Shown here: positions 54,022 through 59,666 of the stretch, piece by piece | Numbering within the stretch: the first letter of the stretch is position 1 | Layout: each line of letters opens with the position of its first letter | Notes under the pieces: generated by a model | The model's input: only the letters and a program-made list of their open reading frames with translations | Databases searched by the model: none | Told to the model about the DNA's origin: nothing | Assembly: GCF_002494345.1 (NCBI RefSeq) | Contig: NZ_NXNI01000001.1 | Coordinates: forward strand, 2,356,001 to 2,420,000 | From: Natrinema ejinorense | Lineage (GTDB): Archaea > Halobacteriota > Halobacteria > Halobacteriales > Natrialbaceae | Direction: 5' to 3' | DNA: 64,000 nt | Position numbers and translations under genes: made by a program

Positions 54022-54384
54022 ATGGGACTCATGAGCAAAATTCTCGGTGGCGACCAGTCCAGAACCGTCGAGGACTACGCCGAACTGGATCTCGACGACG
54101 CCTCGACGAGCCCGGCCGAAGCGACGATGCAAGTACACATCGCGGAGGTCGGAGGTCAGGCCGATGCGATCGACATCAAGGACGCCGTCTACGACGGCGA
54201 TATCGTCGTCGCTGACATCACGCGCCTGCGGACCGAGGACAGCACCGTCGAACACATCGTCGACGAACTGCGCCAGGTCGCACAGGAAGTCGACGGCGAT
54301 ATCGTCCGGAAAGGCGACGATCAGATGATCATCACGCCGACGGGGGTTCGGATCAGCCGCGAAAAACTGGGCCAGAAGCTGTAG
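54022..54384 (+). CDS. sepF: Cell division protein SepF
   Basis: 120 residues. It anchors FtsZ to the membrane in archaea that have FtsZ but no FtsA. The N-terminal MGLMSKILGG is the membrane-binding amphipathic helix, followed by an acidic linker and the SepF core (about 38-115: MQVHIAEVGGQADAIDIKDAVYDGDIVVADITRLRTEDSTVEHIV). The length is typical. A second in-frame ATG at 54031 could also start it. The role in division is established for Haloferax SepF. Confidence 0.93.
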   Translation: MGLMSKILGGDQSRTVEDYAELDLDDASTSPAEATMQVHIAEVGGQADAIDIKDAVYDGDIVVADITRLRTEDSTVEHIVDELRQVAQEVDGDIVRKGDDQMIITPTGVRISREKLGQKL

Positions 54385-55239: not shown

Positions 55240-57645
55240 GTGAGCTCCGCCCTCGGAATCGTCTCGCCGGTGTGGCTCGAGGCCCACCGCGACGCGGATT
55301 CGGTGGTCGTCGTCGACGTCCGGGAGACCCGCGACTACGAGGAACTGGGGCACGTCCCGGACGCGGTCACCGTCCCGGCCGATCGGTTCCGGGATCCGAG
55401 CAGCGTCGCTGACGGGAAGCTCCCGGCCGCCGACGACTTCGCGGCGCTCCTGTCCGCGGTCGGAATCGATCGCGAGGATACCATCGTCGCCTACGGTGAC
55501 GACGGCGGCCCGCTCGCGGCGCGGTTTCTGCTGACCGCCACCGTCTACGGCCACGAAGGGGATTGCTATCTACTCGACGGCGGCCTCGAGGCGTGGCTCG
55601 AGGAGGGTGATCGATCCCTCTCGACCGACGCCCCCGATCCCGAACCGACTGCCTACGAGGCTCGGCTCCAGGACGACGCGCCGATCGTCGACCGCGAGGA
55701 CGTCGACGCTGCCGTCGAAGGCGACGCCGTCGTGGTCGACACCCGCACCGCCGCCGAGTACGAGCAGTCGCGGGTTCCCGGAGCCGTCCACCTCGACTGG
55801 GAGGACCTGCTCGAGGACGGCCGGCTCAGAGACGAGGGGGTGCTCGAGGACCTGCTCGCCGAGAACGGACTCACGCCCGACGAACGGATCGTCCTCTACT
55901 GCAACACGGCTCGGCGACTCAGTCACACCTTCGTCACGCTCCGACACCTGGGCTACGGGGACGTCTCGTTCTACGAGGGGAGCCTGACGGACTGGGTGCG
56001 CGCCGAAGCGCCGGAGTGGGACCCCCTCGAGTTGCAGGCGCAGGTCCGCTACTACGCCGACAACGGCGGCTTCGAGGCGATGGTCGACGAGTTGGGCGAG
56101 GACGTGCTCGGCCGCCTGAAGCTGATCGGGCTCTACCACCAGAAACAGCGGGGCTACTTCATGCTCCGGACGCGGGCCCCCGGCGGCGTCCTCACCGCCG
56201 AGCAGACCCGCACCGTCGGCGAAGTCGCCGACGAGTTCGCGAGGGCTCCCGAGGCGTACGGCGGCCCCGATCAGAATCCCGTCTTCGGCGACGGCTACCT
56301 CGACGTGACGACGCGTCAGGACGTCCAGATGCACTGGATCGAGATCGAGGACATCGCCGAGATCTGGGACCGCTACGACGCGGTCGGGCTCTCGACGATG
56401 CAGGCCTGCGGGAACTCGGTTCGCAACGTCGTCGGCTGTCCGGCGGCCGGACTCGACCCCGACGAGACCGTCGATATCCGGCCCGTCGTCGAGCGGGTGA
56501 GCCAGCGGTTCCTCGGCGATCACCACTACGCCAACCTCCCGCGGAAGTTCAAGGTCAGCGTCACCGGCTGTCACGAGGACTGCGCCCGATCGGGCATTCA
56601 GGACCTCGGGCTGACGCCTGCCCGCAAGGACGGCCGCGATGGGTTCGTCGCGCGGGTCGGTGGGGGCCTCTCGGACGGCCCGCGGGTCGCCAGCGACATC
56701 GATCTGTTCGTCGAACCCGACCGGGTCGAGGACCTCGTCGCCGCGATGGCCGACCTGTTCATGGACCACGGGAGCTACCTCGACACTGCGGTCAACCGGC
56801 TGCGATTCCTCGTCGCCGAATTCGGACCCGAGGCGTTCCGCGAGGAACTCGCAACCTACGCCGACTTCGAGTTCGTCGAGCCCGACGAGACGCTGACGAT
56901 GGACTACCGCGGGGACCACGTCGGCGTCCACGAACAGGGTGACGGCCGCTCGTACGTCGGGTTGAACGTCCCGACTGGCCGTCTGGCCGGCGAGGAGTTC
57001 GCCGACCTCGCTCGTCTGGCCGCGGATCTCGGCGACGACGAGTTCCGCCTGACGCCCAACCAGAACGTCCTCGTCCCGCATCTGGACGACGACGCACTCG
57101 AGGACTTGCTCGCGGACCCGCTACTCGAGCGTTACAGCCCGGATCCGGGGCCGTTCACGCGCGGGATCGTCACCTGCACCGGCCGGGAGTTCTGTAACTA
57201 CGGGATCATCGAGACGAAGAATCGGGCGATCAGGTGGGCCCGCGAGTTGGACGACTGGGCCGAGGAGGCCGGAATCGCCGACGATCACGAGGCGATCCGA
57301 ATCCACATGTCCGGCTGCTCGGCCTCCTGTGCCCAGCCCCAGCTGGGTGACTTCGGGCTGCGCGGCGAGGTCTACCGCGACGACTACGAGTCCGGGCGGG
57401 CGGCCGACTTCGGACTCGGCGGCGACCTCGGGAACGACGAGTTCATCGACTGGCTCGTCGGGAAAATCCCGATCGACGACGTGCCCGGCGTCGTCAAGGC
57501 GACGATGCGCGCCTACGACGCCGACAGCGAGCCCGGCGAGTCCTTTACCGAGTGGACCCGCCGGACCTCGAACGCGGCGCTTCGGGAGATCGTCACGGAC
57601 GAGCCGGCGCGCGACCCGCCCGCCATCGGGACGGAGGTGAGCTAG
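55240..57645 (+). CDS. Tandem rhodanese fused to a siroheme-type sulfite/nitrite reductase
   Basis: 801 residues from GTG 55240. Two rhodanese domains come first: residues about 8-125 (no Cys at the active-site position, YGDDGGPLAAR) and about 135-265 with the active-site loop CNTARRLSH (Cys 221). Residues about 270-790 form the ferredoxin-dependent sulfite/nitrite reductase fold, with the siroheme-[4Fe-4S] motif C-x5-C ... C-x3-C at Cys 646, 652, 693 and 697 and a TGCHEDC stretch (about 444-450) in the first half. The partner gene follows immediately (57646), probably in one transcript. Reduction of sulfite or nitrite by six electrons is expected; the rhodanese module hints at sulfane sulfur, so sulfite or thiosulfate metabolism is favoured. 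Confidence 0.86.
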   Translation: MSSALGIVSPVWLEAHRDADSVVVVDVRETRDYEELGHVPDAVTVPADRFRDPSSVADGKLPAADDFAALLSAVGIDREDTIVAYGDDGGPLAARFLLTATVYGHEGDCYLLDGGLEAWLEEGDRSLSTDAPDPEPTAYEARLQDDAPIVDREDVDAAVEGDAVVVDTRTAAEYEQSRVPGAVHLDWEDLLEDGRLRDEGVLEDLLAENGLTPDERIVLYCNTARRLSHTFVTLRHLGYGDVSFYEGSLTDWVRAEAPEWDPLELQAQVRYYADNGGFEAMVDELGEDVLGRLKLIGLYHQKQRGYFMLRTRAPGGVLTAEQTRTVGEVADEFARAPEAYGGPDQNPVFGDGYLDVTTRQDVQMHWIEIEDIAEIWDRYDAVGLSTMQACGNSVRNVVGCPAAGLDPDETVDIRPVVERVSQRFLGDHHYANLPRKFKVSVTGCHEDCARSGIQDLGLTPARKDGRDGFVARVGGGLSDGPRVASDIDLFVEPDRVEDLVAAMADLFMDHGSYLDTAVNRLRFLVAEFGPEAFREELATYADFEFVEPDETLTMDYRGDHVGVHEQGDGRSYVGLNVPTGRLAGEEFADLARLAADLGDDEFRLTPNQNVLVPHLDDDALEDLLADPLLERYSPDPGPFTRGIVTCTGREFCNYGIIETKNRAIRWARELDDWAEEAGIADDHEAIRIHMSGCSASCAQPQLGDFGLRGEVYRDDYESGRAADFGLGGDLGNDEFIDWLVGKIPIDDVPGVVKATMRAYDADSEPGESFTEWTRRTSNAALREIVTDEPARDPPAIGTEVS

Positions 57646-58917
57646 ATGTCGGGCACGAACCCGTCGGACGCGGCGAGCGGTCCCCGTCCGGGCATCCCGC
57701 AAGCGGGCGTCAAGGGCGTCGGCGCGGATCCGCGCGAACAGGACCGCGACGTCGCCGAGGCCCCCGGTAAGATCTGGTTCCGGGACTTAGACGAGGCCGT
57801 CATCGAGGCCGACCGCTGTATCCAGTGTGCCTCGTGTGTCGCCGCCTGCCCCTCCGACTCCATCGGCATCGACGAGGACGAGGGCCGTCCCACCCTCGTC
57901 AAGATGTGTACCGGCTGCTCGCGCTGCTGGGATTTCTGTCCCCGCAGCGGGCTGCGCTACGAGCGTCACCTCGAGCTCGCGCGCGAGGAACGCGGGCTCG
58001 CCCAGCCCGCCACGTACGCTGCTCGAGCGACCGGTGACGCCGCCGAGGCGGGACAGGACGGCGGCGTCGTAACGGCGCTGCTCGCGGCGCTGATCGAGGG
58101 CGGCGAACTGGACGGCGCGGTCGTCGCCCGGGAGCGCGACGACGACCCGCTCCGTGGCGAGGCGTTCCTCGCGACCTCCCGCGAGGACCTGCTCGAGGCG
58201 GGCGGCAGCATCTACAACCAGACGATGGGGCTGGGACAGATCGAGACGCTGCTCGCCGATGCAGCCATCGGAACCGACGACCCGGACCTCGCGCTCGTCG
58301 GCACGCCCTGTATGATACAGGGGGCGACCGCGCTCGATCGCTACGACCACGCGCCGGCCGATCCCATCGCGCTCACGGTCGCGCTGATGTGTACCCGTAG
58401 TTTCGAGCATCGCCGTCTGGTCTCGCGTCTCGAGTCGTTCGGCGTCGATCCCGATGCGGTCGACACGCTCGACATCAGTGACGGGCGGCTTCGTGCGGTC
58501 GACGGGAACGGCGAGACCCTCCTCGAATCGGACGTCGACGCGTTCGACGCGGCGGGACTGCGCGGCTGCGACGAGTGTGCCGATTTCGTCGGCGGCGCGG
58601 CCGACATCAGCGTCGGCAACGTCGGCAGCGAAGACGGCTATACGACCGCCATCGTCCGGACCGAAACGGGAGAAGCCGCCTGGAATCGGGCCGTCGCGGG
58701 CGGCCTCGAGACGACGGCGATCGACCGGCCGGCGGCGCTCGAGAAATTGGCGGACTGGAACCGGCGGCGTGCGGAATCGATCCTCCCGCGGGAGTACGAC
58801 CCGGACGACAGCATCGGCATCAGCTACGAGCACCATCGGGCAGCCTACGACGGGACGGATCGCGAGCCGAAGCCACTGAATCCTGCTCGTGTCCATCAGT
58901 ACGAGGAGTGGTGTTGA
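57646..58917 (+). CDS. FrhB/FpoF-like F420-type iron-sulfur flavoprotein, electron donor to the reductase
   Basis: 423 residues from ATG 57646, which starts right after the reductase stop. Two [4Fe-4S] ferredoxin motifs are in place: CIQCASCVAACP (Cys 58, 61, 64, 68) and CTGCSRCWDFCP (Cys 88, 91, 94, 98). The rest is the FrhB/FpoF/FdhB beta-subunit region, with QDGGVVTALLAALIEGG and TPCMIQGATAL and a Cys-rich end (RGCDECADFV). Such subunits oxidise reduced F420 through FAD and pass electrons to iron-sulfur clusters. Haloarchaea make F420, so this probably feeds the siroheme reductase. Confidence 0.84.
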   Translation: MSGTNPSDAASGPRPGIPQAGVKGVGADPREQDRDVAEAPGKIWFRDLDEAVIEADRCIQCASCVAACPSDSIGIDEDEGRPTLVKMCTGCSRCWDFCPRSGLRYERHLELAREERGLAQPATYAARATGDAAEAGQDGGVVTALLAALIEGGELDGAVVARERDDDPLRGEAFLATSREDLLEAGGSIYNQTMGLGQIETLLADAAIGTDDPDLALVGTPCMIQGATALDRYDHAPADPIALTVALMCTRSFEHRRLVSRLESFGVDPDAVDTLDISDGRLRAVDGNGETLLESDVDAFDAAGLRGCDECADFVGGAADISVGNVGSEDGYTTAIVRTETGEAAWNRAVAGGLETTAIDRPAALEKLADWNRRRAESILPREYDPDDSIGISYEHHRAAYDGTDREPKPLNPARVHQYEEWC

Positions 58918-59003: not shown

Positions 59004-59666
59004 ATGACGGGCTTTCGTGCAACGGTCGTTATCGACGAACCGGGTGACTGTCCGGTCGCCGACATCTCCGGGGATACCGGCGAACCGGTCGACTCCGTCT
59101 CCCGATCGGCCCAGTCGACGGCCGACGGAACGGTCGTCGAGGAGTTCGGCATCGCCGCGGATGCCTCGATCGACGGCGATTCCGACGTGGAGCTGACGCC
59201 CGTTCAGTCTACCGACCGAGAGTCGATCTATCGGTTCGAGCGCGACAGTGACGTCGACTGTGCCTGTGAAATCATCGAGCGAACGGGAACCCCGGTATCG
59301 TCGATCCGCGGTCAGGACGGTGCCTTGCTCCTTTCCTTTCGGACGCTCGAGTTGGCCGAAATCGCCGAGATCGTCGACGACCTGCGGATGTATTTCGACG
59401 GGGTACTCGTCGAAGAACTCACGCAAGATCACGACGACGCCACCGCGGATCCCGTCGTCGTCAACCGCGACGCGCTCACGACCAGACAGCGGGAAATCCT
59501 CGAGACGGCCCACGAGATGGGCTACTTCGATTACCCGAAGGGGGCGAACGCGACGGACGTCGCCGAGGAACTCGACGTCGCCCGATCGACGTTCACCGAA
59601 CACCTCGCAGCAGCCCAGACGAAACTCATGGACGCGATCCTCGAAGACGAACGTCGGCAGTCCTAA
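59004..59666 (+). CDS. Bat-like HTH-10 transcription regulator
   Basis: 220 residues from ATG 59004. An N-terminal beta-rich sensor-like part (about 1-150) is followed by the HTH-10 domain: ALTTRQREILETAHEMGYFDYPKGANATDVAEELDVARSTFTEHLAAAQTKLMDAIL. It lies 86 bp after the F420-type protein on the same strand, so it may control the reductase operon. The ligand-binding region is not of a recognised type. Confidence 0.8.
   Translation: MTGFRATVVIDEPGDCPVADISGDTGEPVDSVSRSAQSTADGTVVEEFGIAADASIDGDSDVELTPVQSTDRESIYRFERDSDVDCACEIIERTGTPVSSIRGQDGALLLSFRTLELAEIAEIVDDLRMYFDGVLVEELTQDHDDATADPVVVNRDALTTRQREILETAHEMGYFDYPKGANATDVAEELDVARSTFTEHLAAAQTKLMDAILEDERRQS

Follow-up and report, generated by a model that had tools for sequence, protein, structure and literature searches.

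A conserved haloarchaeal gene pair of a rhodanese-fused siroheme reductase and an FrhB-type flavoprotein, a candidate two-subunit F420H2-dependent sulfite reductase

Two adjoining genes and their domains

The window, a 64,000-nucleotide stretch of the 4.48-Mb genome of the haloarchaeon Natrinema ejinorense (contig NZ_NXNI01000001.1, positions 2,356,001 to 2,420,000), contains two adjoining genes, here called alpha and beta, which encode a siroheme reductase with two rhodanese domains at its N terminus and a flavoprotein of the FrhB family, respectively (Table 1). Beta starts on the base directly after the alpha stop codon (TAGATG), leaving no gap. Together the two form a strictly conserved unit: the fused alpha was found in 33 copies from 32 genomes of at least 14 genera, all within Halobacteria, and beta lay 3' of alpha on the same strand in 33/33 fused loci as well as in 36/36 loci with a related alpha that lacks rhodanese (unfused). 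By comparison, 30 NirA-type loci, which encode other haloarchaeal members of the reductase family, had no neighbouring beta gene (0/30), and the pairing is therefore not due to chance. Coinheritance of the two genes across haloarchaea had been proposed as a check in an earlier note on this DNA, made by a model from the sequence alone, and was not contradicted by these counts.

Table 1. Features of the alpha-beta locus (window coordinates)
Feature	Position	Strand	Description
Alpha gene	55240..57645	+	GTG start, TAG stop, 801 amino acids; tandem rhodanese and siroheme/[4Fe-4S] sulfite/nitrite reductase
Rhodanese domain 1	55258..55614	+	about residues 7-125; catalytic Cys absent
Rhodanese domain 2	55687..56004	+	about residues 150-255; catalytic Cys221
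Rhodanese loop C221-N-T-A-R-R226	55900..55917	+	invariant in 33/33 fused homologues
Siroheme reductase region	56098..57498	+	about residues 287-753; Pfam, phmmer against PDB, structure comparison
R310	56167..56169	+	sulfite-site residue, matches R83 of E. coli SiR; invariant
R395	56422..56424	+	sulfite-site residue, matches R153 of E. coli SiR; invariant
K436-F437-K438	56545..56553	+	K438 aligns with tobacco NiR N226 (N226K mutant is 3vlx in the alignment)
C646-x5-C652	57175..57195	+	half of [4Fe-4S]-siroheme motif; conserved in alignment
C693-x3-C697	57316..57330	+	second half of [4Fe-4S]-siroheme motif; conserved in alignment
Beta gene	57646..58917	+	ATG start, 423 amino acids; FpoF/FrhB-type F420H2-oxidase-like flavoprotein
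Two ferredoxin-type [4Fe-4S] motifs, C58/61/64/68 and C88/91/94/98	57817..57939	+	invariant
Ligands of third [4Fe-4S] cluster, C222, C249, C308, C311	58309..58578	+	invariant; aligned to Fsr Cys
DmsR_N/HTH_10 regulator	59005..59666	+	adjoins pair in 18/19 Natrialbaceae loci, not elsewhere; opposite strand in two

Alpha matched the Pfam families Rhodanese (PF00581, two stretches, 3.6e-35), NIR_SIR (PF01077, two stretches, 4.4e-47) and NIR_SIR_ferr (PF03460, 8.9e-33), with both siroheme reductase repeats C-terminal to the rhodanese pair. Its best phmmer matches in the PDB were plant nitrite reductase (NiR) and Mycobacterium tuberculosis NirA/SirA (1e-80 to 1e-68), while the F420-dependent sulfite reductase (Fsr) of methanogens scored just 4e-5. 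A Foldseek comparison of the predicted model (pLDDT 71, with low confidence in the linker and many loops) placed M. tuberculosis NirA (1zj8) first, followed by tobacco NiR, plant and E. coli sulfite reductase (SiR), and rhodaneses. Alpha is accordingly a two-repeat siroheme reductase of the aSir/NirA type.

The second rhodanese domain carries a six-residue loop opened by its catalytic Cys, within a segment (LYCNTARRLS) that is identical in all fused copies; in domain 1 this Cys is missing from 32 of the 33. The nearest solved structures of the rhodanese domains are thiosulfate sulfurtransferases. The loop is of neither the usual TST (CRxGxR) nor the MST type and resembles CQTHHR of Azotobacter RhdA. 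Yeast RDL2 needs the Arg at the end of its loop to split thiosulfate into persulfide and sulfite (PMC8533005), and CNTARR likewise terminates in Arg. These features support the prediction of one active-looking rhodanese attached to the reductase. The host genome also encodes a free-standing rhodanese with an almost identical loop, and the fused module therefore probably derived from such a protein.

Beta matched FrhB_FdhB_N and FrhB_FdhB_C (PF04422, PF04432) in addition to an N-terminal 4Fe-4S dicluster domain, which makes it an FrhB protein with two N-terminal [4Fe-4S] motifs, as in the N-terminal half of Fsr (Fsr-N). In the PDB it aligned with 8riu_B (1.3e-41), Fsr (7np8, 1.3e-37) and FrhB (6.8e-29), and the alignment to Fsr-N and FrhB spans the FAD/F420 region. 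Much of this agreed with the earlier note: the two N-terminal rhodanese domains, the restriction of an active Cys to residue 221, and the siroheme reductase cysteines 646, 652, 693 and 697 are all present as it had described them, and the flavoprotein with two [4Fe-4S] motifs does follow alpha directly. What it had overlooked is the third invariant set of cluster ligands in beta.

Distribution, descent and neighbourhood

The fused alpha occurred in 19 of 125 Natrialbaceae genomes and, across the class, in 30/391 sampled genomes representing 14 of 86 genera from several families; among 295 genomes sampled across the phylum, none was found outside Halobacteria. Since fused proteins were selected by a strong full-length match, distant unfused members of the fused clade may have been missed. 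In two species the fused pair resides on large plasmids (Natronococcus occultus plasmid 2 and a plasmid of Halomontanus rarus).

Alpha and beta have diverged together, as evidenced by the correlation of their distances within the fused clade (r = 0.942; 0 of 2000 permutations as high). The reading frames touch or overlap in most fused loci and show a near-constant short overlap in unfused ones, counts that depend on a scripted choice of start codon which is unreliable at some loci. In a tree of 101 reductase domains, the fused clade (SH-aLRT 98) and the unfused alphas (100) joined with a support of 95, beside NasA-type NirA (100) and a further group marked by the motif PRKWK (96); this topology fits a single rhodanese fusion event. 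No viral relatives of beta were found.

Beyond the pair, neighbours are common only to close relatives and differ between lineages. The DmsR_N/HTH_10 gene downstream is a possible regulator of the pair rather than a part of the enzyme. Upstream, a SepF gene (54022-54384) is kept in 16 of the 19 Natrialbaceae loci and not elsewhere. Operon partners were considered as a functional clue and discarded; in genomes other than those of Natrialbaceae the pair is flanked by unrelated genes, either housekeeping or uncharacterised, so only the alpha-beta pair itself is conserved.

Active site, paralogues and host genomes

The four residues R310, R395, K436 and K438, which we take to be the counterparts of R83, R153, K215 and K217 of E. 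coli SiR, are invariant in 69/69 alphas (33 fused and 36 unfused). The same R/R/K/K set of anion-binding residues is conserved across sulfite reductases including Fsr (PMC10229431). At the position of K438, where every alpha has Lys, all 16 haloarchaeal NasA-type NirA proteins have the plant-like Asn, and nasA lay within the same examined stretch for 15 of them. Identity as a NasA-type nitrite reductase was rejected on this ground, given Lys438 in 33/33 fused copies and a nasA linkage that belongs to another gene of the genome. The residues support a predicted active site of the sulfite type. The window alpha also contains a Tyr-Cys pair (Y299, C390).

The nasA-linked gene is one of two further reductases in the host genome, neither of which had been recorded by the earlier note. 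The first (C1:3066943-3068742) lacks rhodanese, is 53% identical to alpha and is followed by an FrhB-type gene 45% identical to beta; this unfused sister pair is of the kind described in 2012 as putative aFsr (PMC3448663). The other is a NirA beside nasA and without an FrhB gene. In unfused pairs generally, an acidic extension of low complexity, about 50-280 residues long, carries the beta frame back as far as the stop codon of alpha; most of these extensions contain C-x(2-5)-C-x-C (such as CSPTTCTCGE), and the extension is missing in 3 of 25 examined and in the fused pair. The PRKWK type has neither nasA nor an FrhB partner, often occurs where the unfused pair is missing, and is possibly a ferredoxin-dependent sulfite reductase.

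Among 24 genomes checked that bear the fused pair, 8 had no intact unfused pair and thus only the fused one. In one of our genomes (G222), the fused alpha is the sole reductase of the NIR/SIR family, and another (G362) has two intact fused pairs together with broken remnants of an unfused alpha (three stops) and beta adjoining ftsY (G362:C1:1612500-1620500). The genomes without an intact unfused pair and the remnants in G362 therefore suggest that the fused pair can stand in for the plain one, and hence that both carry out the same core reaction. As to earlier gene assignments, the gene numbers NJ7G_0304 and NJ7G_0294 of Natrinema sp. J7-2 would be compatible with the NasA-linked NirA (C1:3694148) and a rhodanese gene 20 kb away (C1:3713814). 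The two J7-2 genes have been given as sulfite reductase and thiosulfate sulfurtransferase, respectively (PMC3402447); if the match holds, NJ7G_0304 may be a nitrite reductase.

The F420 biosynthesis gene cofE scored above cut-off in 22/22 fused-bearing genomes; of 14 controls, just three showed such a score, namely two methanogens and Haloferax volcanii. In the same 22 genomes, no ATP sulfurylase (Sat type, PF01747) and no CysD above cut-off was detected, and a strong match to 3'-phosphoadenosine 5'-phosphosulfate reductase was obtained in just one. Matches to adenosine 5'-phosphosulfate kinase were mostly P-loop matches of about 50 residues, and the one in the N. ejinorense genome falls in a reading frame that adjoins the unfused pair, at the site of ftsY. 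The lack of a recognisable ATP sulfurylase agrees with the reported absence of the sulfate route from Natrinema J7-2 and other haloarchaea, for which a thiosulfate to sulfite to sulfide route by separate enzymes has been proposed (PMC3402447).

Candidate function, rivals and known systems

We consider it about an even bet (probability roughly 0.5) that the pair constitutes a rhodanese-fused aFsr, an F420H2-dependent sulfite reductase of two subunits, in which the rhodanese frees sulfite from thiosulfate. F420H2, proposed as the donor from the family of beta, would reduce the beta flavin, and electrons would run via the three [4Fe-4S] clusters of beta to the siroheme-[4Fe-4S] centre of alpha, where sulfite bound by R310, R395, K436 and K438 would accept six electrons to yield sulfide for cysteine synthesis. 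Rhodanese domain 2 would remove the sulfane sulfur from thiosulfate through Cys221, releasing sulfite beside the reductase, and the persulfide sulfur on Cys221 would be passed to an acceptor thiol. A single protein would then unite both steps of a route for which separate enzymes have been proposed in haloarchaea. The electron donor, the substrate, the direction in which the rhodanese works and the association of the two chains are all inferred here. Only tentatively would we go further and regard the pair as a self-contained F420H2-driven thiosulfate reductase, in which sulfite passes directly to the siroheme within the one chain, sulfide and persulfide are the products, and electrons arrive through the separate flavoprotein.

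Several observations weigh against this assignment. Fsr does not accept thiosulfate (PMC10229431), and FsrII, of the same family, turned out to be a nitrite reductase (PMC9295563). Membership in the FrhB family does not entail F420 binding, and the predicted structure of beta, built on a shallow alignment, was of low confidence (pLDDT 47) and was not used. C390 of the Tyr-Cys pair is retained in just 18 of 33 fused copies. Lys is also present at the K438 position in 14/14 sampled members of the PRKWK group, which has no beta, so that Lys438 argues against an Asn enzyme of the plant/NasA type but is not proof of sulfite. Natrinema sp. J7-2 grows with sulfate as sole sulfur source despite missing the known pathway (PMC3402447), and sulfite could therefore arise by another route. 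There are, finally, nitrogen-oxide contexts: the fused pair of Natronococcus occultus lies directly upstream of a nosZ-nosD cluster, a DUF2249 gene lies about 4 kb upstream in a gene row common to six loci, and in two genomes NirA is found a few kb from the fused pair.

The growth of J7-2 on sulfate also speaks for an alternative in which the pair is still an F420H2-dependent sulfite reductase, with sulfite coming from elsewhere, and the rhodanese uses a different donor, such as polysulfide or persulfide, or a different acceptor, such as cyanide, or is only a sulfur carrier or docking module. The unusual RhdA-like loop and its near-copy in the free-standing rhodanese would suit such a role. 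The retention of Cys221 and its loop in every fused copy points instead to catalysis tied to the reductase, and thiosulfate splitting is the rhodanese reaction that yields the reductase's likely substrate; we consider this alternative unlikely.

It is also improbable, in our estimation, that the pair serves detoxification by reducing nitrite (or hydroxylamine) with F420H2, like FsrII of ANME archaea, with the rhodanese as an accessory module that supplies persulfide or has a regulatory role. The precedent of FsrII speaks for it, as do the nosZ, DUF2249 and NirA genes that lie near the pair in a few lineages, the adjoining DmsR-type regulator, and the best NCBIfam name of alpha, ferredoxin-nitrite reductase, although the score is far below cut-off. 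These nitrogen contexts are lineage-bound, with unrelated neighbours at most loci; moreover, Lys438 is kept throughout the fused and unfused alphas, a separate NirA, linked to NasA and bearing the plant-type Asn, is encoded in the same genome, and nitrite reduction offers no evident role for a rhodanese. That the reductase is fed by ferredoxin, as its place in the ferredoxin-dependent NirA/aSir superfamily might imply, and that beta reduces ferredoxin or something else and is merely co-regulated, seems very improbable given a beta that is strictly adjacent to alpha, co-diverges with it, and has its own two-cluster ferredoxin domain that could stand in for ferredoxin.

The F420H2-dependent sulfite reductase proposed here resembles Fsr Group I (M. 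jannaschii, M. thermolithotrophicus; 7np8, 7npa) in its F420H2-oxidase half, in having two N-terminal and one domain [4Fe-4S] clusters, and in the R/R/K/K sulfite site. Fsr, in contrast, is a single chain whose Dsr-type half contains an inserted ferredoxin domain and which has no rhodanese, whereas here there are two genes and alpha is not of that type. The earlier note had taken the pair for a split counterpart of Fsr. That view is supported as far as a predicted two-chain functional analogue is concerned, given the constant flavoprotein, the F420-making hosts, the sulfite-type site and the one active-looking rhodanese; a split by descent was rejected because alpha is of the two-repeat NirA/aSir type whereas the C-terminal half of Fsr is Dsr-type. 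A two-chain aFsr had already been proposed, as putative, for haloarchaea, with an aSir-type alpha and a free-standing Fsr-N-like beta side by side (Susanti & Mukhopadhyay 2012, PMC3448663); rhodanese is not mentioned there, and no experimental test was found among the papers located. The pair described here differs from it in forming a distinct clade with tandem rhodanese that can serve as a genome's sole aFsr.

The alpha architecture itself matches the rhodanese-fused NirA of Halobacteria (cluster 195.2; 19 of 529 halobacterial NirA; PMC11237513, 2024), which in the consulted passages of that 2024 survey is not linked to F420 or beta, nor are sulfite-type and nitrite-type enzymes separated there. 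M. tuberculosis NirA/SirA (1zj8) has the closest fold (TMt 0.83) and shares Lys at the sulfite site and the Tyr-Cys pair of the window alpha; it is only about 30% identical, depends on ferredoxin, and has neither rhodanese nor an FrhB partner. The haloarchaeal thiosulfate route (PMC3402447) comprises the same two activities in sequence, carried there by separate proteins and here fused. What appears to be new is the link between the rhodanese fusion and the F420 pair, along with the comparison of paralogues, the Lys/Asn division, the distribution, and the substitution of the fused pair for the plain one in some genomes.

A pair that includes a thiosulfate-type sulfurtransferase would bear both on the role of F420 in haloarchaea, which has been called enigmatic and for which one F420-dependent reaction has been reported (PMC8305020), and on sulfide formation without sulfate activation (PMC3402447). 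If the pair is an F420H2-driven thiosulfate reductase, it would bring the F420-dependent reactions known in haloarchaea to two and supply part of the missing sulfide route. A reductase and F420H2-oxidase pair of this kind would also mean that an F420H2-oxidase was joined to a siroheme reductase at least twice in archaea, once with a Dsr-type partner and once with an aSir-type one.

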